Origin: Bacteroidota bacterium
GTDB taxonomy: Bacteria > Bacteroidota > Ignavibacteria > UBA10030 > SZUA-254
DNA length: 56,880 bases
NCBI GenBank assembly: GCA_020056225.1
Contig: JAGVIE010000021.1
Location: 1 to 56,880 of the forward strand
Direction of reading: 5' to 3'
Shown: in pieces, positions 4,127 to 43,016 of the stretch
Layout: the number at the start of each line of letters is the position of its first letter
Numbering within the stretch: the first letter of the stretch is position 1
The notes under the pieces: generated by a model
What the model was told of the DNA's origin: nothing
What the model saw: only the letters and a program-made list of their open reading frames with translations
Database searches by the model: none
Made by a program: the position numbers and the translations under genes

Positions 4127-5143
4127 TTATTTGGTTTTTGTTTCTGCTTTCAAATCTCTCATCAATCGCTCGAACGCTTTTTGGTACGCGTCGTGCTTTT
4201 TCCATTCCTTGAAATCTCCAATATGCCTTGTTCTCCTGATATCGGCCGCCCAGACAACATCTGTTTCCATGACCGTATCGTCTAAGCGGATCGGGAAGAG
4301 AACTATTCGTTTTTCTTTTCGTTCTTTCTCCATGGCGGTTTCCACTTCCTTTTCCACCCAATCACTATTGACAGATTGCTCGGAAAGAATTATCAACAAT
4401 TTGTCATACAGTCGTATTGACTCATCTATTCGGGGACGTATTTTGTCACCTATTTTCATATGCTCGGGTGCGAACCAGCAGCGCACTCCTTTATTCTGCA
4501 AATCGGCATATAAGCGGTCGGCAAAATCTTTATCTTTGCTCGAGTAACTGATGAAGCAAGAGTAATATTCAATGGCTTTACCGACCAGCGAGCCAATGTA
4601 TTCTATCATTGTATCCGGCACACCAGCGCCACGAAGAAATTTTTCAGGTATTTTCCCTTTTGATTTATAAATGGTGTCGATACCTATCGTCGAGGGTCCA
4701 TCATGGATTACAGTTTCAAGATTCTTGGCGGTACTAAGATCGCTTTCTGCAATAGTGATGTAAGCTATTACCGCCTTCTTAAAATCCGTGTTTGTTAATT
4801 TTGCCACGTTGAGGTTTACAACGGAAAGGTTTGCTCCGCTAATGTTTGCAAAGCTGAGATCTGCATCAATGAGATTTACAAAGCTAAGGTATGCACCACT
4901 AAGGTTTGCTTTGACAAGAGATGCACCGTTGAGCTCTGCAAAGACAAGCTGTGCACCACTGAGGTTTGCATTGAAGAAGTTTGTATCATTAAGGTTTGCA
5001 TGATAAAGATTCGCGCCTTTGAGGTTTGTGCCACTAAGGTCAACCTCGCTGAGGTCGGTTTGTATTATATTATTTTTTTCTCTCCATTTATTCCAAGCAT
5101 CAGCACCTTTTTTTAGTATTTTAAGATGTTCTTTGTTTGCCAT
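4127..5143 (-). CDS. Pentapeptide-repeat / TIR-domain protein (putative NADase effector)
   Basis: 338 residues. After a short N-terminal helix, residues about 26-128 are pentapeptide repeats of the A(D/N)LXX type (DLSGTNLKGANLYHANL...), predicted to form a right-handed quadrilateral beta-helix. Residues about 193-335 are a TIR domain starting 'YYSCFISYSSKDKDFADRLY', with 'GVRCWFAPEHMKIGD' and 'SDWVEKEV'. The WxxxE glutamate (about E266) sits where catalytic TIR NADases have their glutamate. Many bacterial TIR proteins degrade NAD in anti-phage defence, which makes an immune or toxic effector role likely but unproven. There is no partner gene such as a cyclic-nucleotide synthase beside it. It begins 17 bases downstream of a decayed serS 3'-end copy and is followed by a 57-bp direct repeat, which suggests acquisition as a module. 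Confidence 0.85.
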   Translation of the reverse strand: MANKEHLKILKKGADAWNKWREKNNIIQTDLSEVDLSGTNLKGANLYHANLNDTNFFNANLSGAQLVFAELNGASLVKANLSGAYLSFVNLIDADLSFANISGANLSVVNLNVAKLTNTDFKKAVIAYITIAESDLSTAKNLETVIHDGPSTIGIDTIYKSKGKIPEKFLRGAGVPDTMIEYIGSLVGKAIEYYSCFISYSSKDKDFADRLYADLQNKGVRCWFAPEHMKIGDKIRPRIDESIRLYDKLLIILSEQSVNSDWVEKEVETAMEKERKEKRIVLFPIRLDDTVMETDVVWAADIRRTRHIGDFKEWKKHDAYQKAFERLMRDLKAETKTK

Positions 5144-14229: not shown

Positions 14230-15177
14230 ATGAAAACGAAAATAACTCTTCTTGCATTGTTAAGCATACTCGGTATGATACTGATAATGTTTTCCGGATG
14301 CTATACACAGCTTGGCTCACAATACAATGAGAAAGAAGGTGATGAAGAATATACGGCAACCGATCAGCAAAATGACGATACGTATACGGAGGAAAACGAA
14401 AGCGATGATTATACTTATAATTCGGAATACAGTGATGATTTCTATCATCCGCGTGTAGGCTTTTCTTATTACTATCCATCCAGCTATTGGCCCTCAACTG
14501 CATTCAGCATGGCTTACGCAGATCCATGGTTCTATGATTACGCGTGGGGATATAACTCGTGGTATAATTATTATTCACCTTTTGGGAATCCATACTATGG
14601 ATATCATCCGTATTCATATTATTCACCGTACTACTCAGGTTATTACGGATATTACTATGGCTATCCCGGATCAGGCACAATAAATGGTAAACGTGATGTA
14701 GGAGAAGTTCGCGCACAAAGCAACGGGATCGAGACAAGTGGACGTACGTACGAGGTTCAGGGTGTACGCGATTACAATTTACCAACGGGCGCAGCTATAG
14801 GAACATCTTCGAGTGGTACTGCTTCATCGAATAAGAACTCAACTACAGTAAGAAGTAATTCTCGCCGCACGGGAAATACCCGCGGATATGCGACACGAGA
14901 ATCCAGAGTATCGGGTCGGTCAGCCGATAATGCTACACGCGCTACAAGCAAGCGTACGAGCACTCGTCCTGAACGGCGCAGAGATGCTCAGCCGCAATAT
15001 CGTCCGGCAGAAACGAGCACTCCTTCAGCTCCAACTTATAGTGCGCCGCCAAGAGAAAATCGCGGCAGTGCCCCCAGTTCTCCGGCACCAGCCGCACGAC
15101 CATCATCGTCCAATAACGGATCAAGTCGGTCGGGAAGTGATCGCAGCAGCGGCGAGTCAAGAGGACGAAAGCCCTAA
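14230..15177 (+). CDS. Tyr-rich, low-complexity lipoprotein
   Basis: 315 residues. The signal peptide ends in a lipobox 'FSGC' (lipidated C24). Then comes an acidic stretch (EKEGDEEYTATDQQNDD), a strongly Tyr/Gly/Pro-rich segment at about residues 75-150 ('YYSPYYSGYYGYYYGYPG'), and a basic Ser/Arg/Pro-rich disordered tail rich in 'RSGSDRSSGESRGRKP'-like sequence. Such composition suggests a surface-exposed, possibly crosslinked or adhesive envelope component. It is probably transcribed with the PorV/FadL-like gene 30 bases downstream, from the sigma-54-type promoter. No enzymatic domain is visible. Confidence 0.75.
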   Translation: MKTKITLLALLSILGMILIMFSGCYTQLGSQYNEKEGDEEYTATDQQNDDTYTEENESDDYTYNSEYSDDFYHPRVGFSYYYPSSYWPSTAFSMAYADPWFYDYAWGYNSWYNYYSPFGNPYYGYHPYSYYSPYYSGYYGYYYGYPGSGTINGKRDVGEVRAQSNGIETSGRTYEVQGVRDYNLPTGAAIGTSSSGTASSNKNSTTVRSNSRRTGNTRGYATRESRVSGRSADNATRATSKRTSTRPERRRDAQPQYRPAETSTPSAPTYSAPPRENRGSAPSSPAPAARPSSSNNGSSRSGSDRSSGESRGRKP

Positions 15178-15207
15178 GTATAATCAACTAATATCAGGTA
15201 AGTGAAT

Positions 15208-16515
15208 ATGAAAAACATCATCAAAGCATTACTATATATATTTGTAGGAATAGCAATTTTTTGGAATACAGGTTCAGCGCAAACTGAGGTAGATGCCTAC
15301 CGTCTTTCTTATTTCGGATTGGGATATGGGGCGAGATCTCTCGGCTTAGGCACAGCATATAGCGGAGTGGCAAACGATTTTTCTGCCGTATATTGGAATC
15401 CCGCAGGGCTTGGACAAATAAAACAAAACGAATTTTCTCTCGGGCTTTCACATATGTCGTTCGATAATACGAGCACATTGTACGGGACTAAAGAAGCGTT
15501 TTCAAACAGCGGAACCAAGCTGAACACATTCGGCCTCGTTTATCCGTTCCCGGTCACGAGAGGAAGTCTGGTGTTTGCCATCGGATACGGAAGAGAAAAC
15601 GATTATGTCGGCGCTTTAAAATTTCGGGGATTTAATTTTATGGGCAGTACCATAAGCTACCCGGATAATGTCGACATGGAAGGAAAGATATTAAGGAGCG
15701 GCGGTATTAATAGCTGGGTTGTAGCCGGTGCTGTTGAGGCGGCGAAAAATCTATATTTGGGATTATCGATAAATTTCCTCTCGGGTTCATATTCGTACAA
15801 CCGGCATTACGTTGAAACAGATACTAAAAACCTTTACACTTTAGATCAATTTATTCAGAAGTATACTATCGAAGAAGATATCGGCGGTTTTACCGGCAGG
15901 CTCGGGATGTTGTATGAATTCAATAATCACAATGGCCGCGTGGGGATCAACATTAAATTCCCGACTTACTATACCGTTCGCCGCAACTATGCTATCGATG
16001 AAACTGAATATTACGATACGCCCGACAGCATTCTTTTCTATCAATCAAACGGCACTCCGGAATATGATCTGACAACGCCGTTCGTATTCAATGCAGGTTT
16101 ATCGTACACATTCGGTGACCTCCTGCTCAGCGGAAATATTGATTTTACAGATTGGACGCAGATGGAGTTCAGCAATACTACAGACGCAGATCTAATAGAT
16201 GAGAACACCTACATCAAAGAAGATTTCAAGGCGACCGTCAACTTCAGGTTTGGAGCGGAATACGCCGTGCCCAGAACCGACCTAAGATTGCGCGCCGGTT
16301 TTGTATATCTTCCCTCACCGTATACTTTTGATTCATCGCCGAACGCACAAAAGTACATAACCGGCGGTCTCGGTTGGGTAATCGATAACGTGCTTAAATT
16401 CGATTTCGGCTATGCGTACGGATTCTGGAATACTAATGAAATCGTCGAGTATGCGATGCCCGATGAAAAGATACATACCAATACCGTTATCGGAACTGTA
16501 TCGTACATGTTTTAA
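15208..16515 (+). CDS. PorV/FadL-like (UPF0164) outer-membrane protein
   Basis: 435 residues from the ATG at 15208; a GTG two codons earlier is also open, but the AGG at 15196 fits the ATG better. Signal peptide to about residue 25 ('SAQTE'). The mature N-terminus has the family signature 'YGARSLGLGTAYSGVANDFSAVYWNPAGLG', followed by repeated amphipathic strands to a C-terminal '...TNTVIGTVSYMF' ending in phenylalanine, as in outer-membrane barrels. Related proteins include FadL-type transporters and PorV of the type IX system. Which role applies here is not shown by sequence. Followed by a strong terminator. Confidence 0.8.
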   Translation: MKNIIKALLYIFVGIAIFWNTGSAQTEVDAYRLSYFGLGYGARSLGLGTAYSGVANDFSAVYWNPAGLGQIKQNEFSLGLSHMSFDNTSTLYGTKEAFSNSGTKLNTFGLVYPFPVTRGSLVFAIGYGRENDYVGALKFRGFNFMGSTISYPDNVDMEGKILRSGGINSWVVAGAVEAAKNLYLGLSINFLSGSYSYNRHYVETDTKNLYTLDQFIQKYTIEEDIGGFTGRLGMLYEFNNHNGRVGINIKFPTYYTVRRNYAIDETEYYDTPDSILFYQSNGTPEYDLTTPFVFNAGLSYTFGDLLLSGNIDFTDWTQMEFSNTTDADLIDENTYIKEDFKATVNFRFGAEYAVPRTDLRLRAGFVYLPSPYTFDSSPNAQKYITGGLGWVIDNVLKFDFGYAYGFWNTNEIVEYAMPDEKIHTNTVIGTVSYMF

Positions 16516-32264: not shown

Positions 32265-33329
32265 ATGAAGGTATCAATTTTAATCGGGCAAAATAAGCAT
32301 CTTAAAACTTTTTGTGTTCTTCTCCTTTTCGTCTGTTCCTCTCCCGATATAATCGCGGCATCTAAAGCAAAATACGCCGGTGAATTCATTGCCATCGGTG
32401 TAGGCGGGCGTGCACTCGGACTTGGCGGTGCGTATTCTGCCATAGCCAACGATATTACTGCCGGTTACTGGAATCCTGCAGGACTTTCTTCTCTTATGTA
32501 TCCACAAATTTCACTTATGCACGACGAGCGTTTTGCAGGGTTGGTGAACTATGACTATGGCGCAGTCGCTATTCCGGTTGGAACAGTAACAACGCTTGCC
32601 GTTAGTGTTATTCGTTTGGGTGTGGATAATATTCCTAACACGCAAAATGCCGGAATCGATGTGAACGGAAATCTGTTACCGCCGGATCAATGGCAGAACT
32701 TCGATCATCTCGATCAGAGCCGTATCACTTATTTCAACAGCGCAGATTGGGCATTCTATCTGTCGTACGCGAAGAAGGTAAAAGACAATTTTTCTTATGG
32801 CGCGAATCTAAAAGTAATACGCCGCGAAATGGGAGCAGCCTCGGCTACCGGAATCGGGTTCGATGTTGCAGCAAAATATCTGCCTTACGAAAATATCGCG
32901 CTTGGCGTTAATCTTCAAGATGTTACTACAACGCTCATCGCCTGGAGCAACGGCACGAACCAGCTTGTCACCCCGACGCTTAAAATTGGATCTGCATATT
33001 TCATCGATGCGTTGAGCGGTCGGTTTACACCCGCTTTCGATGTCGATGTGAGATTCGAAAACAGAAAATATTCTTCCAACGCCCATCTTGGTTCTATGAG
33101 TTTTGATTTCCACGGCGGTCTTGAATTTGATTATAAAAATCTTGTTGCGCTTCGTGCGGGCTACAGCGATATAGGATCGCTCAATTTCGGCGCTGGAATA
33201 CATCTCCCGAAATTCGACATCGATTATTCTTTTGTCAAATTCAATAACGAAGACCAATTGGGAAACACTCATCGTATCTCATTGACATTTACTCTACAAG
33301 CCGATCAATTCAAGCGGAGCCTCGAATAA
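32265..33329 (+). CDS. PorV/PorQ-family outer-membrane protein
   Basis: 354 residues with GAGG before the ATG. Signal peptide to about residue 33 ('SSPDIIAASKAKYAG'). Family motif 'IGVGGRALGLGGAYSAIANDITAGYWNPAGL', then alternating barrel strands to 'NTHRISLTFTLQADQ'. In Bacteroidota such UPF0164 proteins are outer-membrane barrels, some serving the type IX secretion system as PorV/PorQ. The assignment to T9SS is not proven here; no other por gene is present. The lipoprotein gene follows after 3 bases. Confidence 0.8.
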   Translation: MKVSILIGQNKHLKTFCVLLLFVCSSPDIIAASKAKYAGEFIAIGVGGRALGLGGAYSAIANDITAGYWNPAGLSSLMYPQISLMHDERFAGLVNYDYGAVAIPVGTVTTLAVSVIRLGVDNIPNTQNAGIDVNGNLLPPDQWQNFDHLDQSRITYFNSADWAFYLSYAKKVKDNFSYGANLKVIRREMGAASATGIGFDVAAKYLPYENIALGVNLQDVTTTLIAWSNGTNQLVTPTLKIGSAYFIDALSGRFTPAFDVDVRFENRKYSSNAHLGSMSFDFHGGLEFDYKNLVALRAGYSDIGSLNFGAGIHLPKFDIDYSFVKFNNEDQLGNTHRISLTFTLQADQFKRSLE

Positions 33330-33332
33330 TCG

Positions 33333-33881
33333 ATGAGAGATCGCTTTCTTCTTATTGTTCTTTCAATCATTCTTGCATCATGTGCCGCTAAACTTCCGTA
33401 CACATCAAATATTCCGTTGACCAAGCAGATATTTTATTCGCGTGACGGCGTTGTAGGAGGCAGAGTTCCTCAAGGATGGTTCTCATCCACCGAGGATACA
33501 TTGGCACCGGCTGTGTTGGTTTGGCTTATTAAAGAAGATTTTTCTGCTACCCTTACACTAAAAGAGTTAATCCCCGATCAGCTTGCCAAACAGCAGATAA
33601 ACAAAGAAGGATTAAGGTTGTTGGCTGAAGTTAGCTCAAAATTTCAGGCTGAAACCTTCTCTGAACAAGTAAATGCATTTCAAGAGTTCGATATACGGGG
33701 AAGAAAATTTTGCAGTTATGAAGTAGGAGCCGGAAACGAACGAAAGCGCCTCGTTGTTTTTGCCGCAGGTGGAAAATATTATGAGTGTGAAATACGAACA
33801 ATGAAGGGACTTTGGACAGCCGCTGAGCTTACCCAGCTATTCAACACACAACAGACAGTTCTTTCAACCCTAACCTATTGA
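33333..33881 (+). CDS. Lipoprotein of unknown function
   Basis: 182 residues. The signal peptide ends in the lipobox 'LASC' (lipidated C17). Mature part: 'VGGRVPQGWFSSTEDTLAPAVLVWLIKEDFSATL', a helical middle, and 'GNERKRLVVFAAGGKYYECEIR', giving an alpha/beta PsbP/Mog1-like look, though no family is firmly recognised. It is 3 bases downstream of the PorV-like gene, so it is probably an outer-membrane accessory to that barrel. Confidence 0.75.
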   Translation: MRDRFLLIVLSIILASCAAKLPYTSNIPLTKQIFYSRDGVVGGRVPQGWFSSTEDTLAPAVLVWLIKEDFSATLTLKELIPDQLAKQQINKEGLRLLAEVSSKFQAETFSEQVNAFQEFDIRGRKFCSYEVGAGNERKRLVVFAAGGKYYECEIRTMKGLWTAAELTQLFNTQQTVLSTLTY

Positions 33882-33885
33882 AAAT

Positions 33886-36084
33886 TTATTTTGTTTTTAA
33901 GATGAACACGCCGTTCCATTCATCCGGCGGCGGCGATGCTTTAAAGATATGTGACCGCTCGATGTATATTTGAGACGGGTAGTCGTTGGGTATTAATTCC
34001 AGAGATTTCCCGAACATCTGAACCGCCCGATCCCACTCCCGCTGTCTATACAATTGAAGAGCATTGCAATATACCTCTATGAATTTCTGCTTGTCGGACG
34101 CAATACCATCCTCAACCGTTCCAATAAGCTCATATACACGGATTGGCTCGGTCTTTCCGGCTACTACAAGTAGATCAAGTTCTCTTACGTAAACATGGTT
34201 TTGAACTTTTCTGTATGTACTTTCGCTGATCATGAGACGGGTCTTATACTGTTTATTCGCGCTTTCCAGCCGTGCACCTAAATTCACGCTGTCTCCGATG
34301 ACTGTATAATCGAATCGGTTAGCGCCGCCCATATTACCCACGATAACTTCGCCTGTATTTATTCCGATTCGCGTATTGAGTATGGGTTTTCCTTCAAGCT
34401 GCCAAATCTTAAGCAAGCCGTTTAGAGTGCTTTGCATTTGTACTGCCGCTTTACAAGCACGAAGAGCGTGGTCGTTTTGCGGCACGGGCGCTCCCCAAAA
34501 AGCGACGATGGCATCGCCTTCGTATTTATCAAGTGTTCCATCGTTATGAAGAATGATAGCTGTCATCGAGTTAAGATATTCGTTTAATATTGTAACGAGC
34601 GATTCCGGCGCCATTTTTTCCGATATCTGCGTAAAATTTTCAATATCGCTGAAGAATATTGTTAGTTCCTTTCTCTCGCCGCCCAATCTCAATTTTTCAG
34701 GATGGGCTACCAACTCATCGACTATGGTCGGATTCACATAGCGGCTGAACATACTCTTGATCATAATTTTTTGCTTGCGCTCTGCTACATAGTTATAAAC
34801 GGTACTTCCGATATAGCTGATGATAATAGCGAGGAAAGGACTCATCATATCTGCAAGGATATTTTTATCGATGAATAGTTTAAGTGATATCCAATATATG
34901 ATGTAGATCTCAGCGAGAATAATAGCAACACCGAATACCTCTATAAGTGCGCTGAACTTCGTGCGGATCGCCTTAAGTCTTTCGGTGAAAACAAAGGTGA
35001 AGAGAGTCAAACCGAAAACAATACATGCCGTCATCCAGAACGGTTCTCTTGTGATGAAATTACCGTCTATGACGCTTTGAATTACATTCGCGTGCATCTC
35101 GACACCGTACATCATTTTATTTCCCTGCTTGTCGTTAACAAGCGGAGAGAGAAATAAATCTTTATCCTCCGGAACTCGTGATCCGACGAGTACGATCTTT
35201 CCGTTCAGTATGCTGTCGTGCATAATTCCATAATCGGGATTATCGAAGGTGTTGATATCGGAATTATATTCCAGCTCTTCGGCGGTTTTGAAATCACTGT
35301 CGTCAAGAATATCCGTGATGTTGATTATTCGGAAGGTACTGTCGGGTCCATAATAGTTGATGAGAAACGATCTTCGGTCGTACTGAGGGATCGCTTTGGT
35401 ATAATAATAAAAATGGTCATCGCTTACACTTGACGTATAAGATCTATCAAGATTATAATAGGCGTTTAATACTGCCATGGAAAATGATGGAATAAATTTT
35501 TCCTGGTTGTCATCGTAATACAAAGACATGTAGCGCCGGCATCCGGCATCCATGTCTTGAGGGATGTTCGCTATGCCGAAGCCGGTTGTAGTATCGATAA
35601 ACCTGTTGTAGTAGCCTGGATTTTGTTCATGTATAGTGAATTGAAATTTTTCCGATTTCAACCTGCCTGCGAGAACAATATTCCCGGATTCTTTGATTTC
35701 TTTTCGAAATTGGTCGTCTTCAATTCTATCCGTGTCGTAACCGGGAGAAAGTAGAATATCAATCCCGATAACTTTTGCTCCGGCACGATTCAAATTATTT
35801 ACCAGCCGGGTGTAATACGATTGCGGCCAGGGCCATTTTGCAGGCAACGATTTGAACGATTCACCGTTTATATCAACGACGACAACTTTTGAACTATTTT
35901 TCAATTTATGGTTCACTCCGCGCTGCTGGAATCGCAGATCGATAAGGGAAAGTTCGGCGCTTTTTAGCGGAGGGAATTCGAATAAAATATTTTGTGTCAA
36001 CAACAGAACAAATACGGCGACAAAAATACTTATGCTAATGTGAAGAAAAAATAATCGGACTGGTTTGGACAGCATTTGCTCCAT
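33886..36084 (-). CDS. CHASE2-domain class III adenylate cyclase
   Basis: 732 residues. An N-terminal transmembrane helix (12-30), a periplasmic CHASE2 sensor (about 40-345, 'SLIDLRFQQRG', 'VVVVDINGESFKSLPAKWPW', 'VIGIDILLSPGYD', 'GKIVLVGS'), three helices (about 350-430), then a class III cyclase domain (about 470-650). Metal aspartates are D480 ('FFSDIENFT') and D524; base-specifying residues are K520 and T594 ('DKYEGD', 'FDYTVIGD'), and N601/R605 are transition-state residues ('NLGARLE'). All catalytic residues are present, and Lys/Thr indicate ATP as substrate. The C-terminal tail is TPR-like and ends 'PPPDEWNGVFILKTK'. Last gene of the FecR operon. Confidence 0.9.
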   Translation of the reverse strand: MEQMLSKPVRLFFLHISISIFVAVFVLLLTQNILFEFPPLKSAELSLIDLRFQQRGVNHKLKNSSKVVVVDINGESFKSLPAKWPWPQSYYTRLVNNLNRAGAKVIGIDILLSPGYDTDRIEDDQFRKEIKESGNIVLAGRLKSEKFQFTIHEQNPGYYNRFIDTTTGFGIANIPQDMDAGCRRYMSLYYDDNQEKFIPSFSMAVLNAYYNLDRSYTSSVSDDHFYYYTKAIPQYDRRSFLINYYGPDSTFRIINITDILDDSDFKTAEELEYNSDINTFDNPDYGIMHDSILNGKIVLVGSRVPEDKDLFLSPLVNDKQGNKMMYGVEMHANVIQSVIDGNFITREPFWMTACIVFGLTLFTFVFTERLKAIRTKFSALIEVFGVAIILAEIYIIYWISLKLFIDKNILADMMSPFLAIIISYIGSTVYNYVAERKQKIMIKSMFSRYVNPTIVDELVAHPEKLRLGGERKELTIFFSDIENFTQISEKMAPESLVTILNEYLNSMTAIILHNDGTLDKYEGDAIVAFWGAPVPQNDHALRACKAAVQMQSTLNGLLKIWQLEGKPILNTRIGINTGEVIVGNMGGANRFDYTVIGDSVNLGARLESANKQYKTRLMISESTYRKVQNHVYVRELDLLVVAGKTEPIRVYELIGTVEDGIASDKQKFIEVYCNALQLYRQREWDRAVQMFGKSLELIPNDYPSQIYIERSHIFKASPPPDEWNGVFILKTK

Positions 36085-36091
36085 GTGTTAA

Positions 36092-38530
36092 TCAGACGTC
36101 TGCACGCAGTATCAGGTTCCAGACAATATCGGTATTGGTGTTCGAAGAGTTGTACATCCTTTTATTGAAATAGCAATTAAATTGCGTCTGAGCGCTGAGA
36201 TTCCTCCAGAAATAATATTGTGCCCCGGCATTGACCAGCACCCGCTGGATATCGCCGAATGTCGGACTCAACGAACTATTTAAACGAAGTTTATCGTCAA
36301 GTAAACGGTACTGCCCATTTGCGTAAAGTGTAGTGTATGTGAAACTTGCCGGAACGTCCGGCGTACCGCCTACGGAGACAAATTTATTCGAATTAACCGT
36401 AAAACTAACAATTGTTTGTAATGGAATGTTGAATTTCGATATTGCGCTTAATGTTACAGCGGTACCGCGCGTATCGAAATCCCGGATTGTGTTATCGTTT
36501 TTAACAGATGTGCTGATGCTCAGCATGGCATTATGACGAATACCGTATATAAATTCTTTTCCGATCTGTACAAGTATTCGATTTGTTTTATCGTCGATCG
36601 CATAAAGTGAATCGTCTATCTTCATGTCATTGTTGTTAGCGTTACGGAGATAGGCGACACTGATATTCGGGAAATTGATGCTCGGATAGTATGAAATTCC
36701 GATATTTGCCGTTGTACTCGTTGTTGTGGAAGCTTTTATTTTAGTCGTGTTATCCTGAAGTCGTTCAAAACCGCCTGAGAGGAACACCTGATTTCCGATA
36801 AGGCGCTGCCGGTCTGAAATGTTATATCCGACCACATCTGTTCGTAGAAAAGATTGTCCGAACGATTCGTAACTCGCACCGTGTCTGAGATAGTTGAACC
36901 TGAAATTATTATCGAAGTAATTTAAAGCTATTCCAGCCTCATATGAAAGAGTTGGAAGATTTTTCATCGCTAAAGGAATAAGATGCTCGTTCACCGTAAT
37001 GACCCGGGAAAATACATCGCGTATACTGCGTATGGTATTTCTGTCTGATTCTGCATAAGCTGGTTCAGCGAAAATACGATCTATATCCGCATTACTGAAC
37101 GATCCCTTTGAGATATCTTTGTTGGTTGCGCTAAAAGCCGCTTGTCCTGTGACCTCAATGTTTCTGCTATCGAACGCTAATAAGAAATCCGTTGCGAGCG
37201 CAATATTTTCCATCGGTCTGATTCCGTATTCAATTGAATTCTTGTCGTCAGACGATTTTAAAAAAGTAAATCCTAAATGGGAATCGTCCCTCTTACCAAA
37301 ACCGGTCCTGACAACAAAGAGGCGGCGGTCAAAAGTACCCGGATTTACCTTAACCCATCTCTTACCGCTCGCGGTGGAATCAAAAAATACAAATGTTGCG
37401 TTAGTATTATCGGAATTTTGTTGTGCAATCAGCATGCTGTCCGGGAAAGGTGTGCCGACAACGCTTCCGACGCGCCGTGTAACCAATCCGGTTACGATAT
37501 CGACATTAAACTTTCCTAAGTCTAAACTTCCCACGAATCCCCGGATGCGTTTGCCATTCATGATTAAGTCTGAGAATACGGGATAACTATCTCCGTATCC
37601 CAGTTTTATCCAGGGGGATTCACCGCCGATAAAAAACCTGTTTTGGGGTTGTAAATATTTTTTTTCTTCGCTGGTGATGTACAAATTTCCGCGAACACGA
37701 AATTCATTATAACTGCCTTTTGCCGTTATCGTTGCGCGATTATAAGCTGTTGTATTGTCCGATATATTTTCCTGCCGGGTTTCTATTTGTGCCGAAGCTC
37801 CATAAAGCCATGGAGAAAATACTACGGCTGGTTTCTTTTCAGCCATGCCGGATACTGAAAAATTCCAATCGAAGCTATCAATCTCTTTTCCCGATGTATC
37901 GAATAAAACAACTCGTACTATGTGAGTACCTGATTCGAGAAAGATTGAAGCATTCTCGGGTCTGACCACAATAATATCTCCCGCCCGCACGGAACTACTC
38001 GACAAATCAATATCATCGAGAAAAACTTTTGTCAAATTCATACCGATCAAACTGTCATCCTGCGATACTGAAAATGAGATCAGTACATCATTCGGTGAAA
38101 GCTTGTCCCCCTCATTCGGACTCAGAACAACAAAATCATATGGTTTGATTGGAATATCCTGTAATGAAATCCGAAATGGTTGTTGCTCGGGATTCTCCAT
38201 GGGATATGTTTCCGGATCGGTTTTTCCGGTTAATGTCAGGATGAAATAATATTCAAGAAATGGAGGGAGGATTATTTCCGCAGGCAGAGTAATAGAAGCG
38301 GAATTTCCGATGACGGGCATTTCGTTCCGTTTGAAATCGCGTTCACCGAATTGTCTATATGCGATTTCAATACGGTCTATCTGGTTGGATTGAAATAGAT
38401 CTACCTGAATAGTCAAGGGTTGGCTGGCATTGGCGCTACCAACATTGACTTTCGTTATTTTATCGCTTACCTGTGCAGTAGCAACATGCACAACGAGGCA
38501 ACATAACGCAGCAAAAAATAAATTACGCAC
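36092..38530 (-). CDS. Large outer-membrane-type protein of the FecR-CHASE2 operon
   Basis: 812 residues with a signal peptide cleaved near 'VATAQVSD'. Residues about 25-230 look like two Ig/fibronectin-like beta domains ('PLTIQVDLFQSNQIDRIEIAYRQFG', 'SGTHIVRVVLFDTSGKEIDSF'). From about 240 there are many alternating amphipathic strands ('YGASAQIETRQ', 'NEFRVRGNLYITSE', 'FNVDIVTGLVTRR') to the end, as in a large beta-barrel. No known family recognised. It lies 7 bases upstream of the cyclase gene, so it is probably the outer-membrane partner of the signalling module. Confidence 0.7.
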   Translation of the reverse strand: MRNLFFAALCCLVVHVATAQVSDKITKVNVGSANASQPLTIQVDLFQSNQIDRIEIAYRQFGERDFKRNEMPVIGNSASITLPAEIILPPFLEYYFILTLTGKTDPETYPMENPEQQPFRISLQDIPIKPYDFVVLSPNEGDKLSPNDVLISFSVSQDDSLIGMNLTKVFLDDIDLSSSSVRAGDIIVVRPENASIFLESGTHIVRVVLFDTSGKEIDSFDWNFSVSGMAEKKPAVVFSPWLYGASAQIETRQENISDNTTAYNRATITAKGSYNEFRVRGNLYITSEEKKYLQPQNRFFIGGESPWIKLGYGDSYPVFSDLIMNGKRIRGFVGSLDLGKFNVDIVTGLVTRRVGSVVGTPFPDSMLIAQQNSDNTNATFVFFDSTASGKRWVKVNPGTFDRRLFVVRTGFGKRDDSHLGFTFLKSSDDKNSIEYGIRPMENIALATDFLLAFDSRNIEVTGQAAFSATNKDISKGSFSNADIDRIFAEPAYAESDRNTIRSIRDVFSRVITVNEHLIPLAMKNLPTLSYEAGIALNYFDNNFRFNYLRHGASYESFGQSFLRTDVVGYNISDRQRLIGNQVFLSGGFERLQDNTTKIKASTTTSTTANIGISYYPSINFPNISVAYLRNANNNDMKIDDSLYAIDDKTNRILVQIGKEFIYGIRHNAMLSISTSVKNDNTIRDFDTRGTAVTLSAISKFNIPLQTIVSFTVNSNKFVSVGGTPDVPASFTYTTLYANGQYRLLDDKLRLNSSLSPTFGDIQRVLVNAGAQYYFWRNLSAQTQFNCYFNKRMYNSSNTNTDIVWNLILRADV

Positions 38531-38600
38531 AGTCCGATTATCGTTAATTGAACATATTCATAACGATGACAAGATACGAAAATTACAATTAATACGCATA

Positions 38601-39308
38601 TTATTGTTGCTTATAACGCAACTTCAATTCTTTTTTATTGCCTTTCGAATCCTGCATTTCGAGCTTCAGCTCGTTTGTCTTAGCGTCTGAAGCGGCACTG
38701 ATTGCGTCTGCTAGTTCTTCATCCGTTGCTATCCTGGAATAGACGGAGCCATCCTCATTAGAAAACCCGATTGACCCGGCATCGACGTCTGTTTCATTGC
38801 CGGAGATCTTGTTTTTAAGATTGACGCGCCCTTCAGTAACAACAAGTGTATCGTGTCCCTGTCCGCCGCTCCATTTTCCCTTTGTACCGCGGATAGATGC
38901 AACCGAAGTCGGCGATGTGAGACGAAACAGTTCCGCCTTTTGTTTTTGCACTTCGAATTCTAACGAGCCTTGGGTTAAATGATTTTCCTTTATGAATGAA
39001 TTTTGTTTGCCAGCGCCATTCATCGTCAGAACAGATTGTTCTCTCAAGCGAACAAGGCTTTTATCCTTAAACTTGATCAGCGCAAGCGATCCTTTTCCTG
39101 TCTGGACCTGATCGCCGACGAATAATACATCGCCGGTGCTTGCCGGCGTATAATCGTTTTGAGAAGATTTTTTCTTGACGTCTTTTATAATCTTTTGAAT
39201 AACCGCAAGATCGATATTGTCAGCGGCGATTGTAAAGTTAGACAACAAAGAACTCGTTAAAAGTATAAGAATTAATGCTTTTAAAATATATGAATGTTGG
39301 TTTTTCAT
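38601..39308 (-). CDS. FecR-domain periplasmic protein
   Basis: 235 residues with a signal peptide (cleavage near 'FTIAADN'). The FecR domain spans about residues 50-165: 'GDVLFVGDQVQTGKGSLALIKFKDKSLVRLREQSVLTM', 'GSLEFEVQKQKAELFRLTSPTSVASIRGTKGKW' (shown in part), and 'LVVTEGRVNLKN'. Unlike classical FecR it has no N-terminal cytoplasmic anti-sigma segment and no sigma factor beside it. The C-terminal tail is charged and helical. It probably serves as a periplasmic binding or sensing element for the CHASE2 cyclase encoded two genes downstream. Confidence 0.85.
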   Translation of the reverse strand: MKNQHSYILKALILILLTSSLLSNFTIAADNIDLAVIQKIIKDVKKKSSQNDYTPASTGDVLFVGDQVQTGKGSLALIKFKDKSLVRLREQSVLTMNGAGKQNSFIKENHLTQGSLEFEVQKQKAELFRLTSPTSVASIRGTKGKWSGGQGHDTLVVTEGRVNLKNKISGNETDVDAGSIGFSNEDGSVYSRIATDEELADAISAASDAKTNELKLEMQDSKGNKKELKLRYKQQ

Positions 39309-39334
39309 GTTAATTCTCCTTTATCAATCAATTG

Positions 39335-40405
39335 TTACTCGAAGCTCAATTCGATAGAATCACTTGTTGAACGTAATTCGTTCAGTAGTTTCAGTAAATC
39401 TTCTTTTGAGTAAGTGCTGCCATTAAGCAAATATGTTCCTGTGAGGATATAATTATCTTTATCAATATCCTGAAAAATCTTCGGATATCTATTGCCATAT
39501 GTATCTTTGAGATATGTAAGAATAAAATCTTCCGAACGAATCTGCGGAGAGCTTGAAACGGTAAAGAGACGTATTGGGCTTGAGACTTCCACTTCTGTCC
39601 CGCCCGGTCCTGCTGTTTTACTCACAACCTTCCATGCGTAGGTCTTTCCGAATTCAAGGGGACGTCCGCCTGAATAAAGAAATGAATTTTGTCCCAATAA
39701 TTCTGTTTCGACCATTGGCGGCTCATGAGATATTGCGTCTTCGCGGGATTGGTCGGGATTTATTTCAGCAACCGTTAATACGGCTTTATTCCCGTCGTGG
39801 AAGAATTCAAAGAGCGGAAATTCATTTGTTGTTTCACCTTCCCTCGGAGAAAGGAGATCAACCCTGGATGAATTTAGCAGTACAATATCAATCGATGGAC
39901 CGTTTAATGGAATATTATCTGAGCAGATGATTGCAATTTGGAATGTATATTTACCAGCAGGAAATTTACCTGTTGCAAGAGCGACATCTTGCACATCTTC
40001 CTTTGCGCGGGAATCGAGCGTGAAATCTTGCCTTTGAATCGAACGTCCGATATCTAAATTTGTATACGTCGCGCCTGCCTGTGGGACGAAGAAACCCTTA
40101 GATGTAAAATCGGCGGCATTGGGATATGTGCTGCCATTTGCGAGATTTATATTCAATACAATGTGCAGTCGCACTGTATCACCGCCCGCGCTCGGACCCA
40201 ATCTCACTGTAAATAACAATGTCGCGCTCTCAAAATGATCAAAGTCTATGTCGGCTATTGTCAGTTGTTGAACCGGGGCAGGTATAATATCAATAATAGA
40301 CGTCTCACACTGTGCCTGTATTTCTGTATTGACGGCAAAACTGAGTATTGTCAAGATTAGAATAACAACAGGCAGTATGGCAATAGTAAAACACTTCATT
40401 TTCAT
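39335..40405 (-). CDS. Secreted Ig-like protein heading the FecR-CHASE2 operon
   Basis: 356 residues with a long signal peptide ('ILPVVILILTILSFAVNTEIQAQ'). The mature protein has an N-terminal beta-rich domain ('FESATLLFTVRLGPSAGGDTVRLHIVLNINL') and an Ig/fibronectin-like domain ('RVDLLSPREGETTNEFPLFEFFHDG', 'FGKTYAWKVVSKTAGPGGTEVEVSSPIRLF') common in FCB exported proteins. A helical C-terminal part ends 'EELRSTSDSIELSFE'-like. No catalytic motif. It has a good promoter 40 bases upstream and is 26 bases before the FecR gene. Confidence 0.7.
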   Translation of the reverse strand: MKMKCFTIAILPVVILILTILSFAVNTEIQAQCETSIIDIIPAPVQQLTIADIDFDHFESATLLFTVRLGPSAGGDTVRLHIVLNINLANGSTYPNAADFTSKGFFVPQAGATYTNLDIGRSIQRQDFTLDSRAKEDVQDVALATGKFPAGKYTFQIAIICSDNIPLNGPSIDIVLLNSSRVDLLSPREGETTNEFPLFEFFHDGNKAVLTVAEINPDQSREDAISHEPPMVETELLGQNSFLYSGGRPLEFGKTYAWKVVSKTAGPGGTEVEVSSPIRLFTVSSSPQIRSEDFILTYLKDTYGNRYPKIFQDIDKDNYILTGTYLLNGSTYSKEDLLKLLNELRSTSDSIELSFE

Positions 40406-40443
40406 AGATACTCCATTTATAGTGCTAATATAATTAATGCAAA

Positions 40444-40472
40444 AGTATAATGAATTCTCTGTATTTAATCAA
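40444..40472 (-). promoter_or_regulatory. Promoter of the FecR-CHASE2 operon
   Basis: Minus strand: TTGATT (40472-40467), 17-base spacer, TATACT (40449-40444), about 38 bases before the first ATG of the operon. Confidence 0.65.
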
Positions 40473-40533
40473 TACCCAATATATTATAGAACACATCCTA
40501 TAAACGCAACGCGGGCAATATCACTAAATTTGC

Positions 40534-41847
40534 TTAGAATCGCGAGATATCGTTGTAAATGATGAAAGCCATAAAAGCCAGTAATAAAATAAAGCCCGCC
40601 TGCTGGATAGCAATTTTTACTCTGTGCGGGATATCTCTCCTGAAGATTTTTTCATACCCTAACATTAACAAATGTCCGCCATCAAGAGCAGGGATTGGAA
40701 GGATGTTGAGAATTGCCAGGCTCATACTCAACTGTGCCATAAACCAGATGAACGTCAGTAAACCCATCTCGGCGCTCTGTGTTGCGAGTTGGGCTATTGC
40801 AACCGGTCCTCCCAACGATTCTTTTATGGAAGCTTTTCCCGTAAAGACTTTGCTGAATGTTAGATAAAAAAGATATACAGATTGCTTAATATCGTTAATC
40901 CCTTCACCGAGTGCTTCGATAATCGAATACTCAACATGCTTTGACGGTCCTGTATAGCGGCTTCCGACAATAATTCCAATTCTCCCGGAAGCAGTCACTG
41001 TTACAGTGTCGGAGATAATGTTATTTCCCCGTTTCCATTTAAGAGTGATTTGCTTGCCGGCATTTCTATTTATGAGAGCAATAGCAATAGGCTGATTCAC
41101 GGCTGTATCGTTAACCGCGATGAGCGTGTCGCCAGCCATCAAACCGATTTTTGATGCGGGCATTTTCGGATCAATACCCTCTACTGTTGCCACCGTGTGC
41201 CCCAGCATGATTCCGGGTTGATTGCTCGAGAGTGAAGGCATGGTTTTCGCGGGCACGAAAACCTGAAGATGTTGACCGCGGCGATCGAGATCTATCGTAA
41301 TATCGTTTCCCAAATTTTCTATATAAATTAAATTCTGAACTTGATCCCAGTGTGAAACCTGCGCGTGGTTGATCGATAGAATCTTATCCCCTGCCATCAA
41401 TCCTGCTTTTTCAAATGCGCTTCCTTCTGCAACGAAACCGATATCCGTTGTCTCGGCAGTATAAGACCCTTGCTTGAAATGAATAGTCCAGAAGATTACC
41501 ACAGCAAGCAGAACATTCATAATTACACCGGCAGAGATGACGAGCATTCTTGCCCACATAGGCTGCGAACGAAATTCCCATGGTTGAGGCGCTTGATTTG
41601 CGAAATCCGTATCCATGCTCTCGTCGACCATGCCGGCTATTTTTACATAACCGCCGATCGGTATCCATGAAACGCAGTAATCAGTATCGCCGATTTTTTT
41701 CCCGAATGCTCGAGGAGGAAATCCGATAGAAAACCGATCGACACGCATCCCGGTTAGTTTTGCGGCTATGAAATGGCCGAATTCATGGATGAAGACTAAA
41801 ACGCCCAAAGTGATTGCAGTATAAAATAACATGCTGAGAACTTGCAT
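40534..41847 (-). CDS. rseP: Site-2 zinc metalloprotease RseP
   Basis: 437 residues. The zinc motif 'HEFGH' is at residues 21-25 in the first helix. Two PDZ domains follow (about 130-200 and 205-290: 'GFVAEGSAFEKAGLMAGDKILSIN', 'PKMPASKIGLMAGDTLIAVN'), then the third ligand in 'PIPALDGGHLL'. It cleaves membrane-embedded anti-sigma factors and signal peptides in regulated intramembrane proteolysis. The start overlaps the dxr stop (TAATG), the usual dxr-rseP arrangement. Confidence 0.95.
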   Translation of the reverse strand: MQVLSMLFYTAITLGVLVFIHEFGHFIAAKLTGMRVDRFSIGFPPRAFGKKIGDTDYCVSWIPIGGYVKIAGMVDESMDTDFANQAPQPWEFRSQPMWARMLVISAGVIMNVLLAVVIFWTIHFKQGSYTAETTDIGFVAEGSAFEKAGLMAGDKILSINHAQVSHWDQVQNLIYIENLGNDITIDLDRRGQHLQVFVPAKTMPSLSSNQPGIMLGHTVATVEGIDPKMPASKIGLMAGDTLIAVNDTAVNQPIAIALINRNAGKQITLKWKRGNNIISDTVTVTASGRIGIIVGSRYTGPSKHVEYSIIEALGEGINDIKQSVYLFYLTFSKVFTGKASIKESLGGPVAIAQLATQSAEMGLLTFIWFMAQLSMSLAILNILPIPALDGGHLLMLGYEKIFRRDIPHRVKIAIQQAGFILLLAFMAFIIYNDISRF

Positions 41848-43016
41848 TATAATTTCCTATTTCTTTTTTTTAGAGTTTCGATATAGATACGTGTTGCATT
41901 GTCGGTATCAATGATATCATCGAGCGAAGGAGAATGTTTTATGGGAATTTTTTCCAACGCTTTTCGTATAAGTTGAGGAATCCTATTGAATGAAATCTTT
42001 CCGCCGAGAAATAATTCTACCGCGATCTCATTTGCAGCGTTTAGTATTGCCGGCGCGGTTCCGCCTATCCTTAAAGCATCATAGGCGAGCTTGAGGCATT
42101 CGAATTTTTTTATGTCTGGCTTTAAAAATGTCAGTTTATGCTGTTTGACGAAATCAATCCTGTCGAAATTCGAAACGGCGCGCTCCGGATGAGTAAGCGC
42201 AAACTGAATCGGAATTTTCATATCTGGGACGCCCATTTGTGCTTTCACAGAGCCGTCAACAAATTCGACCATCGAGTGAATTATCGATTCCGGATGTATG
42301 AGAACATCAATTTTTTCTGGCGGCAGCTTAAAGAGCCAATGAGCCTCAATCACTTCCAATCCTTTATTCATGAGGGTCGCCGAATCGATCGTGATTTTAT
42401 TGCCCATTTTCCAATTGGGGTGTTTGAGCGCCTTCGCGACTGTGACGTCCTTAAAATTCTTTTTGTCGAGATGAAGAAACGGTCCACCTGATGCGGTCAA
42501 TATGAGGCGATTGATTTTATCATGGTTTTCTCCCATGAGACATTGGAGTATAGCGCTGTGTTCGCTGTCGATTGGGATAAGAGGAGCATTGTGTTTTTCG
42601 ATCAAAGCCGTGATAATTTCACCGGCAACGACAAGAGTCTCTTTATTTGCGAGCGCGACTGTTTTTCCATTTTTGATCGCCTCAATTGTCGGTCTCAAAC
42701 CTGCAAATCCGACGAGTGAATTGATCAGGATATCAAAATCTTTTTGATTGACAAGCTCTCTTAATCCTTCTTCACCGGAGAAAATTTTAATGGAACCGTT
42801 CAAAGAATGTATCAGATTTGCGGCGGATAATTTGTCCAGTACTGCGACAGCCTTTGGATGGAAACGATCGATTTGTTCTTTTAGTGCGCAGGTATTTGTG
42901 TTTGCGGAAAGATACTGAACACGGAACCTGTTTGGAAAATTTGCGATAACTTCCAAACTGTTTTTTCCGATTGAACCGGTTGATCCTAGAATGCAGATAT
43001 TTTTCATTTCAGCCAT
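41847..43016 (-). CDS. dxr: 1-deoxy-D-xylulose-5-phosphate reductoisomerase
   Basis: 389 residues from the ATG at 43016 (MAEMKN); an in-frame TTG at 43025 is less likely. NADPH motif 'LGSTGSIGKNSLEV', metal and substrate region 'PIDSEHSAILQCLMG', 'LTASGGPF', 'KHPNWKMGNKITIDSATLMNKG' (in part), and 'HPESIIHSMVEF'. It makes methylerythritol phosphate, committing the cell to the MEP isoprenoid route. A hairpin with a T-run directly precedes the start. Confidence 0.97.
   Translation of the reverse strand: MAEMKNICILGSTGSIGKNSLEVIANFPNRFRVQYLSANTNTCALKEQIDRFHPKAVAVLDKLSAANLIHSLNGSIKIFSGEEGLRELVNQKDFDILINSLVGFAGLRPTIEAIKNGKTVALANKETLVVAGEIITALIEKHNAPLIPIDSEHSAILQCLMGENHDKINRLILTASGGPFLHLDKKNFKDVTVAKALKHPNWKMGNKITIDSATLMNKGLEVIEAHWLFKLPPEKIDVLIHPESIIHSMVEFVDGSVKAQMGVPDMKIPIQFALTHPERAVSNFDRIDFVKQHKLTFLKPDIKKFECLKLAYDALRIGGTAPAILNAANEIAVELFLGGKISFNRIPQLIRKALEKIPIKHSPSLDDIIDTDNATRIYIETLKKRNRKL

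Follow-up and report, generated by a model that had tools for sequence, protein, structure and literature searches.

The window analysed here consists of the 56,880 nucleotides of contig JAGVIE010000021.1 (positions 1 to 56,880 of the forward strand; assembly GCA_020056225.1, Bacteroidota bacterium, class Ignavibacteria). At 33886-40405 its minus strand carries four genes which encode, in this order, an exported protein of 356 residues (Sec356), a FecR-domain protein, a predicted outer-membrane beta-barrel protein of 812 residues and a class III nucleotide cyclase with a CHASE2 domain. The question that this locus raises is whether the four genes work as one system, which would convert a state of the cell envelope into cyclic AMP (cAMP), or whether they are neighbours with separate roles. 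A first-pass annotation made from the sequence had placed four genes here, and all four open reading frames (ORFs) were verified on the same strand, with spacers of 26 (Sec356/FecR), 70 (FecR/barrel) and 7 bases (barrel/cyclase), in a genome of 3.50 Mb in 62 contigs. On balance, and with modest confidence, we consider that they form one conserved trans-envelope signalling unit, in which a signal would pass from the barrel through FecR and Sec356 to CHASE2 and cAMP. The route from the envelope to cAMP which that annotation had proposed is the best-supported reading, its experimental parallel being the NsrA/CHASE2 cyclase system of Sinorhizobium meliloti that is compared below.

The distribution of the genes carries this reading in the first place. 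A barrel homologue was found in 86 genomes of a set of 100 relatives (own genome included), while CHASE2 was present in 98 and a FecR domain in 87 of the same genomes. The barrel profile also matched 138 of 395 genomes drawn from the phylum, many of these by fragmentary or weak matches only, and the four-gene set itself occurs in other classes of the phylum as well. In addition, named genomes were scanned with the barrel alignment, using one peptide pattern and keeping the best 80 of 92 relatives. The labels obtained were mostly Ignavibacteria, Ignavibacteriales or Bacteroidota/Bacteroidetes, together with a few Chlorobi, Chlorobiaceae, Bacteroidia and unclassified entries, and they included one strain of Stygiobacter electus and one metagenome-assembled genome labelled Melioribacter roseus.

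For the analysis of gene order 120 neighbourhoods were fetched and 114 were used, 82 of them extending 3 kb or more upstream of the barrel gene and 2.6 kb or more downstream. Among the 85 relatives with a match, the own genome not counted, 80 were fetched (G083, G086, G039, G095 and G093 were left out), and 40 were fetched from the 122 genomes outside the order that had any match, L241-L246 remaining uncounted (partial or weak barrel matches). The genes for Sec, FecR, barrel and cyclase were adjacent and in this order in 73 of the 82 barrel-selected neighbourhoods with enough flank. In this count Sec was any same-strand ORF of at least 250 residues directly upstream of FecR; three loci were missed by the first Sec profile, and a profile rebuilt without them finds each at 2.3e-34 or better. 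The nine exceptions were L099, with all four genes in over-long frames, L051, with no adjacent cyclase, and seven loci with the barrel only. The first-pass annotation had made its proposal depend on the four genes being conserved together, which is what was found, and the gene set is therefore more than a chance arrangement.

A conserved order may also be what slow rearrangement has left in place, with no functional linkage among the genes, and it must be noted that the flanking genes dxr, rseP, porV and dnaX are conserved too in many loci. In family f2, however, the set is found at a different chromosomal place, and it stays intact where the flanks differ (f2, f9, f15 and f34); rseP was undetected beside the set in f2, f9, f15, f34 and f23, one of the five f2 loci being too short to tell. 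Therefore, the relocated set of f2 and the loci without rseP are not explained only by leftover synteny, which these relocations make highly improbable as an account of the whole. It is also opposed by the fact that barrel, FecR and cyclase are absent together. Twelve genomes of the order had no barrel match, and eight of these, belonging to four genera, were at least 85% complete (G016, G035, G042, G050, G054, G057, G061 and G075). The module FecR was absent from all eight, and against the cyclase profile none of them scored above 490 bits, whereas the module-bearing genomes G003 and G011 reached 1069 and 1060 bits. Regarding the four less complete genomes without a barrel match, FecR lay at the edge of a contig in G012 and was absent from the remaining three.

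The proteins are linked in their sequences as well. A profile of the first Ig-like (immunoglobulin-like) domain of the barrel protein gave 109 hits in 109 barrel ORFs (120 non-repeated loci) and 36 hits in 30 of 100 FecR ORFs, with none in the remaining ORFs of 6239. With repeated loci the numbers were 183 barrel and 54 FecR hits; named loci are often duplicates, hence the recount. The FecR proteins that bear the domain are longer than that of the window. Sec356 showed no meaningful match to the barrel profile (probability 2.7), and therefore the shared domain is limited to FecR and the barrel. Distance matrices of the proteins were then correlated with control for rseP and dxr in 39 loci plus the window, after dropping L064, L091, L099 and L105 (split or merged frames) and excluding loci with incomplete gene copies. 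The correlation beyond rseP and dxr was 0.74 for barrel and cyclase and 0.70 for FecR and barrel, values which were reached by none of 2000 permutations. When porV was also controlled (30 loci), they were 0.75 and 0.60, respectively (0 of 1000 permutations), and the six module pairs ranged from 0.48 to 0.75.

The cyclase matches CHASE2 (PF05226, E 1.7e-47 to 1.2e-46) and Guanylate_cyc (PF00211, E 1.4e-25 to 1.3e-24), and in a search with the latter profile, which leaves the other cyclase classes outside, it was the sole such protein of the genome. Its hydrophobic segments lie at residues 7-40, 348-367, 372-406 (two overlapping) and 409-427, with PF05226 between the N-terminal and the later ones, which is the layout of CHASE2 receptors. 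The first-pass annotation had stated that every catalytic residue was present, and this agrees with our alignments: D480, K520, D524, T594, N601 and R605, which we take to be the catalytic positions of class III cyclases, did not vary among the 31 sequences aligned, and 27 of 27 cyclases that lie outside the order have them as well. We assume that D480 and D524 are the metal-binding aspartates and that K520 and T594 form the substrate Lys-Thr pair, to which N601 and R605 are added. A Lys-Thr pair is typical for class IIIb adenylate cyclases. By its PF00211 domain and these residues the protein falls in that class at the sequence level, and its product would probably be cAMP. The C-terminus showed a weak TPR match, below the cut-off, and a conserved tail with the alignment consensus PPPxxWNGVFxLxTK. 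On the output side, five cNMP-binding (cyclic nucleotide monophosphate-binding) proteins are encoded in the genome; four of them were scanned against Pfam and showed one Crp-type HTH, one SpoIIE and one histidine-kinase domain. The CRP-family regulator that had been suggested as something to look for elsewhere in the genome is thus encoded there, as a protein with cNMP_binding and HTH_Crp_2. The genome has a second CHASE2 protein, in L004 (G000:C22), which is fused to a sigma-54 interaction domain, without a cyclase, and adjoins a protein of 399 residues that reads as coiled-coil.

The FecR-domain protein matches PF04773 of Pfam at E 1.1e-13. Its only hydrophobic segment, at residues 7-30, is N-terminal and is followed by no later membrane segment, and no other Pfam domain was found above the cut-off; the cytoplasmic anti-sigma part with its membrane segment is absent. 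It had been described as a FecR protein without its usual sigma factor, and in the window its direct neighbours are indeed the module genes, the rest of the genome not having been searched for sigma factors. RseP cuts anti-sigma factors. A link of RseP to the module was dropped despite the presence of rseP upstream in many loci, because no membrane segment follows the signal region of FecR and rseP was undetected beside the module in the five families mentioned above. Some other observations concern FecR proteins and sigma factors in these genomes: a 727-residue protein of L002 (G000:C36) combines a FecR domain with a type IX sorting tail (Por_Secre_tail); L092, L093 and L105 have FecR proteins of 562-568 residues with an Ig-like domain (three copies in L093, two in L105); and an ECF-type (extracytoplasmic function-type) sigma-like ORF lies at 14712-15260 (+) of L051, on the opposite strand to the module and upstream of it by several genes.

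The barrel protein, which had been called barrel-like, is predicted to consist of a signal-like segment, two Ig-like domains (about residues 24-226) and 26 barrel strands (residues 241-811; counted from the model), in a model with a mean predicted local distance difference test score (pLDDT) of 83.3 and a predicted template modelling score (pTM) of 0.62. Neither this protein nor Sec356 had a significant match in Pfam or NCBIfam. For the barrel protein no Plug, STN or TonB-receptor was seen in Pfam at E up to 1, the sole row in that range being a galactose-binding domain at 0.18. Foldseek placed FimD ushers first and Cir, PapC and TonB-dependent receptors next, with template modelling scores (TM-scores) of about 0.3. 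After VIA rescoring of the 1000 best Foldseek chains, to which the comparison is confined, MtrB of the Mtr complex (PDB 6r2q) was at the top, with Z 20.8, a root-mean-square deviation of 4.7 and 465 residues aligned, the next row having 17.4. No claim of usher identity is made, because VIA ranks MtrB first. The likeness of the modelled barrel to MtrB may be one of fold; Pfam gave no support for kinship at the sequence level, and no MtrB chain came up in the profile search of the PDB. MtrB has 26 strands, the same number as in the model of which it is the best structural match. Unlike MtrB, the protein studied here has two Ig-like domains before the barrel, and its gene set has no multihaem cytochrome partner, the CxxCH haem motif being absent from all four module proteins. 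Sec356, which had been annotated as an Ig-like exported protein, agrees with that description: its only hydrophobic segment (1-31) is N-terminal, and the AlphaFold2 model (mean pLDDT 87.8) predicts two Ig/FnIII-like domains, supported by FnIII/Ig matches. With respect to barrel loci of other genomes, a short HIT-like protein was read from the translations near six of the seven barrel-only loci (L217-L219, L221-L223 and L225; the exception is L218), and in L242-L246 barrels of 557-588 residues resemble the barrel profile in part, the ORF after each of them having about 1500-2300 residues.

The comparison with published systems is based on excerpts of the papers cited, given by their PubMed Central (PMC) accessions, and applies to those excerpts. 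S. meliloti needs NsrA, predicted to be a beta-barrel receptor of the outer membrane, at a step upstream of the CHASE2 cyclases CyaD1, CyaD2 and CyaK, with the CRP-type Clr downstream, and the system responds to an outside protein (PMC13001267, PMC7529298). An outer-membrane barrel and a CHASE2 adenylate cyclase (here by prediction) and a CRP-type regulator are common to both; in the window the barrel is clustered with the cyclase, FecR and the Ig-like protein, and its likeness to NsrA is one of role. A cluster of Campylobacterota contains a CHASE2 adenylate cyclase, a phosphodiesterase, a FecR-domain outer-membrane protein and a TPR protein (PMC9239204). A FecR-domain gene lies there beside a CHASE2 adenylate cyclase gene, as here, whereas neither a phosphodiesterase nor a separate TPR gene is among our four; the excerpt on that cluster mentions no large barrel and no Sec356-like protein. 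In magnetotactic bacteria the gene after mtxA encodes a CHASE2 adenylate cyclase (PMC4439547), that is, an exported-protein gene precedes the cyclase, as in the window. The excerpt reports no barrel for mtxA, and our FecR profile matched MtxA weakly (E 0.027), which is no proof of homology. The Burkholderia BiofilmReg operon encodes a response regulator, a LysM-FecR protein and a CHASE2 histidine kinase (PMC5192318). It resembles the present set in that a periplasmic FecR-domain protein is encoded beside a CHASE2 receptor, but its output is a histidine kinase instead of a cyclase, and no barrel is described in the excerpt.

In the FecA-FecR-FecI system an outer-membrane barrel and a FecR domain pass a surface signal inward. 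Unlike in that system, the set has no sigma factor gene and has a predicted inner-membrane cyclase instead, FecR is without a later membrane segment and the barrel is without a TonB-receptor match. Contact between FecR and FecA is described in the excerpt considered (PMC5498481). No paper on this set in Ignavibacteria was found in the open-licence PMC literature. The 812- and 356-residue components had been held to be undescribed, which is right for them as protein families (Pfam, NCBIfam) and does not extend to the kind of system, given the Campylobacterota and magnetotactic parallels. The set goes beyond the published CHASE2-cyclase/FecR systems in its four-part composition and in a barrel family that has no match in Pfam.

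Several observations weigh against reading the four genes as one unit. All 114 loci were selected by a barrel match, and some genomes of this order, G035 among them, have CHASE2 cyclases with neither FecR nor barrel. The FecR of the window itself has no copy of the barrel Ig-like domain, which is not exclusive either: a 1207-residue ORF of G308 matches the region at 3.1e-10, and so do peptidylarginine deiminases of solved structure, at 3.8e-4. The outside gene porV correlates residually with module proteins (0.22 to 0.53), and therefore part of the distance signal is background. In the S. meliloti excerpts the FecR-domain protein SMc02177 is dispensable for plant-signal perception, which speaks against FecR as a receptor. 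In families f26, f41 and f53 (7 of the 82 loci) the barrel is alone, and therefore the barrel family also works without the cyclase. Finally, the cyclase is located away from the other three genes in G003 and G011 (loci L051 and L055).

Some of these points would suit an envelope-stress or assembly feedback, in which the CHASE2 cyclase reads the assembly or loading of a structural or export complex of barrel, FecR and Ig-like protein, with no external ligand. A barrel that is alone in three families, and so has a function of its own, is consistent with it, as is a cyclase that is unlinked yet kept in two genomes. Pilus ushers export proteins, and they occupied the first Foldseek rows, at the TM-scores given above; VIA, however, puts MtrB first on the same candidates (Z 20.8), not ushers, and the parallel NsrA system answers to an outside protein according to the excerpts. 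We consider this explanation unlikely, although it deserves attention. Distinctly less probable, in our opinion, is that the genes are co-transcribed and serve separate processes, with cAMP regulating the expression of envelope parts. The unlinked cyclase of G003 and G011 points in that direction, and so does smc02177, a FecR-domain gene which the cAMP regulator Clr targets and which is dispensable for perception in the excerpts, but a shared function accounts better for the distance correlation between barrel and cyclase and for the joint loss of these two with FecR.

In the trans-envelope signalling unit that we favour, the 26-strand barrel, presumably located in the outer membrane, would act together with its Ig-like domains as a surface-exposed receptor or sensor which senses or binds something, possibly a ligand. 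The soluble FecR protein, with Sec356 as an accessory, would relay the state of the barrel across the periplasm, probably through physical contacts, and the CHASE2 domain of the putative inner-membrane cyclase would receive the relayed state. The signal would thus run inward, the cytoplasmic class III cyclase domain would then alter the rate of cAMP synthesis, and cAMP may act via the cyclic-nucleotide-binding proteins, including the CRP-type regulator. More tentatively, and with some doubt, we suggest that the set represents a widespread and distinct receptor, in which an MtrB-like 26-strand barrel holds through its Ig-like domains a soluble FecR protein that docks on CHASE2, the cyclase replacing the sigma factor in a FecA-FecR-like route, and which would be ancient in Ignavibacteria and other classes of the phylum. 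According to an excerpt of a 2016 paper, the factors recognised by CHASE2 domains were not known. In this regard, a set conserved over several classes narrows the partners of one CHASE2 receptor to a definite list, in which there is a large outer-membrane barrel family that has no Pfam match, and it makes directly testable whether CHASE2 reads a FecR protein that is bound to such a barrel.

The annotation of the locus is provided in Table 1. The one good promoter that had been attributed to the four genes was not sustained, as 24 promoter-like sites were found in 33300-42000 and 22.0 +/- 4.6 in shuffles, which is not above chance; the site upstream of the set is listed in the table.

Table 1. 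Annotated features of the four-gene set and of the gap upstream of it (positions of the window).
Feature	Position	Strand	Basis and remarks
Sec356, 356 residues	39335..40405	-	ORF; exported, signal-like N-terminus, two Ig/FnIII-like domains, small helical C-terminal part
FecR-domain protein, 235 residues	38601..39308	-	ORF, PF04773; signal-like N-terminus
FecR domain	38823-39113	-	Profile match
Predicted outer-membrane barrel protein, 812 residues, GTG start	36092..38530	-	ORF and structure model
First Ig-like domain of barrel protein, residues 22-128	38147..38467	-	Copy in longer FecR proteins of relatives
CHASE2 class III nucleotide cyclase, 732 residues	33886..36084	-	ORF, PF05226 and PF00211
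CHASE2 domain, predicted periplasmic	35014..36009	-	PF05226
Cyclase catalytic domain	34147..34671	-	PF00211
Gap between rseP and module	40406..40533		Contains promoter-like site 40472-40444, minus strand, 9/12 positions matching

Next to the cyclase, 32265-33881 (+) encodes a PorV2-like protein (NF052325, under the cut-off) and a 182-residue protein with a lipoprotein-like N-terminus, whose ORF is convergent with that of the cyclase, the two ends being 4 bases apart. The PorV2-like neighbour was rejected as a member of the module; it is convergent and present in part of the loci only. Farther away in the window, the translation of an ORF at 4127-5143 (-) reads as pentapeptide-like repeats followed by a TIR-like stretch.

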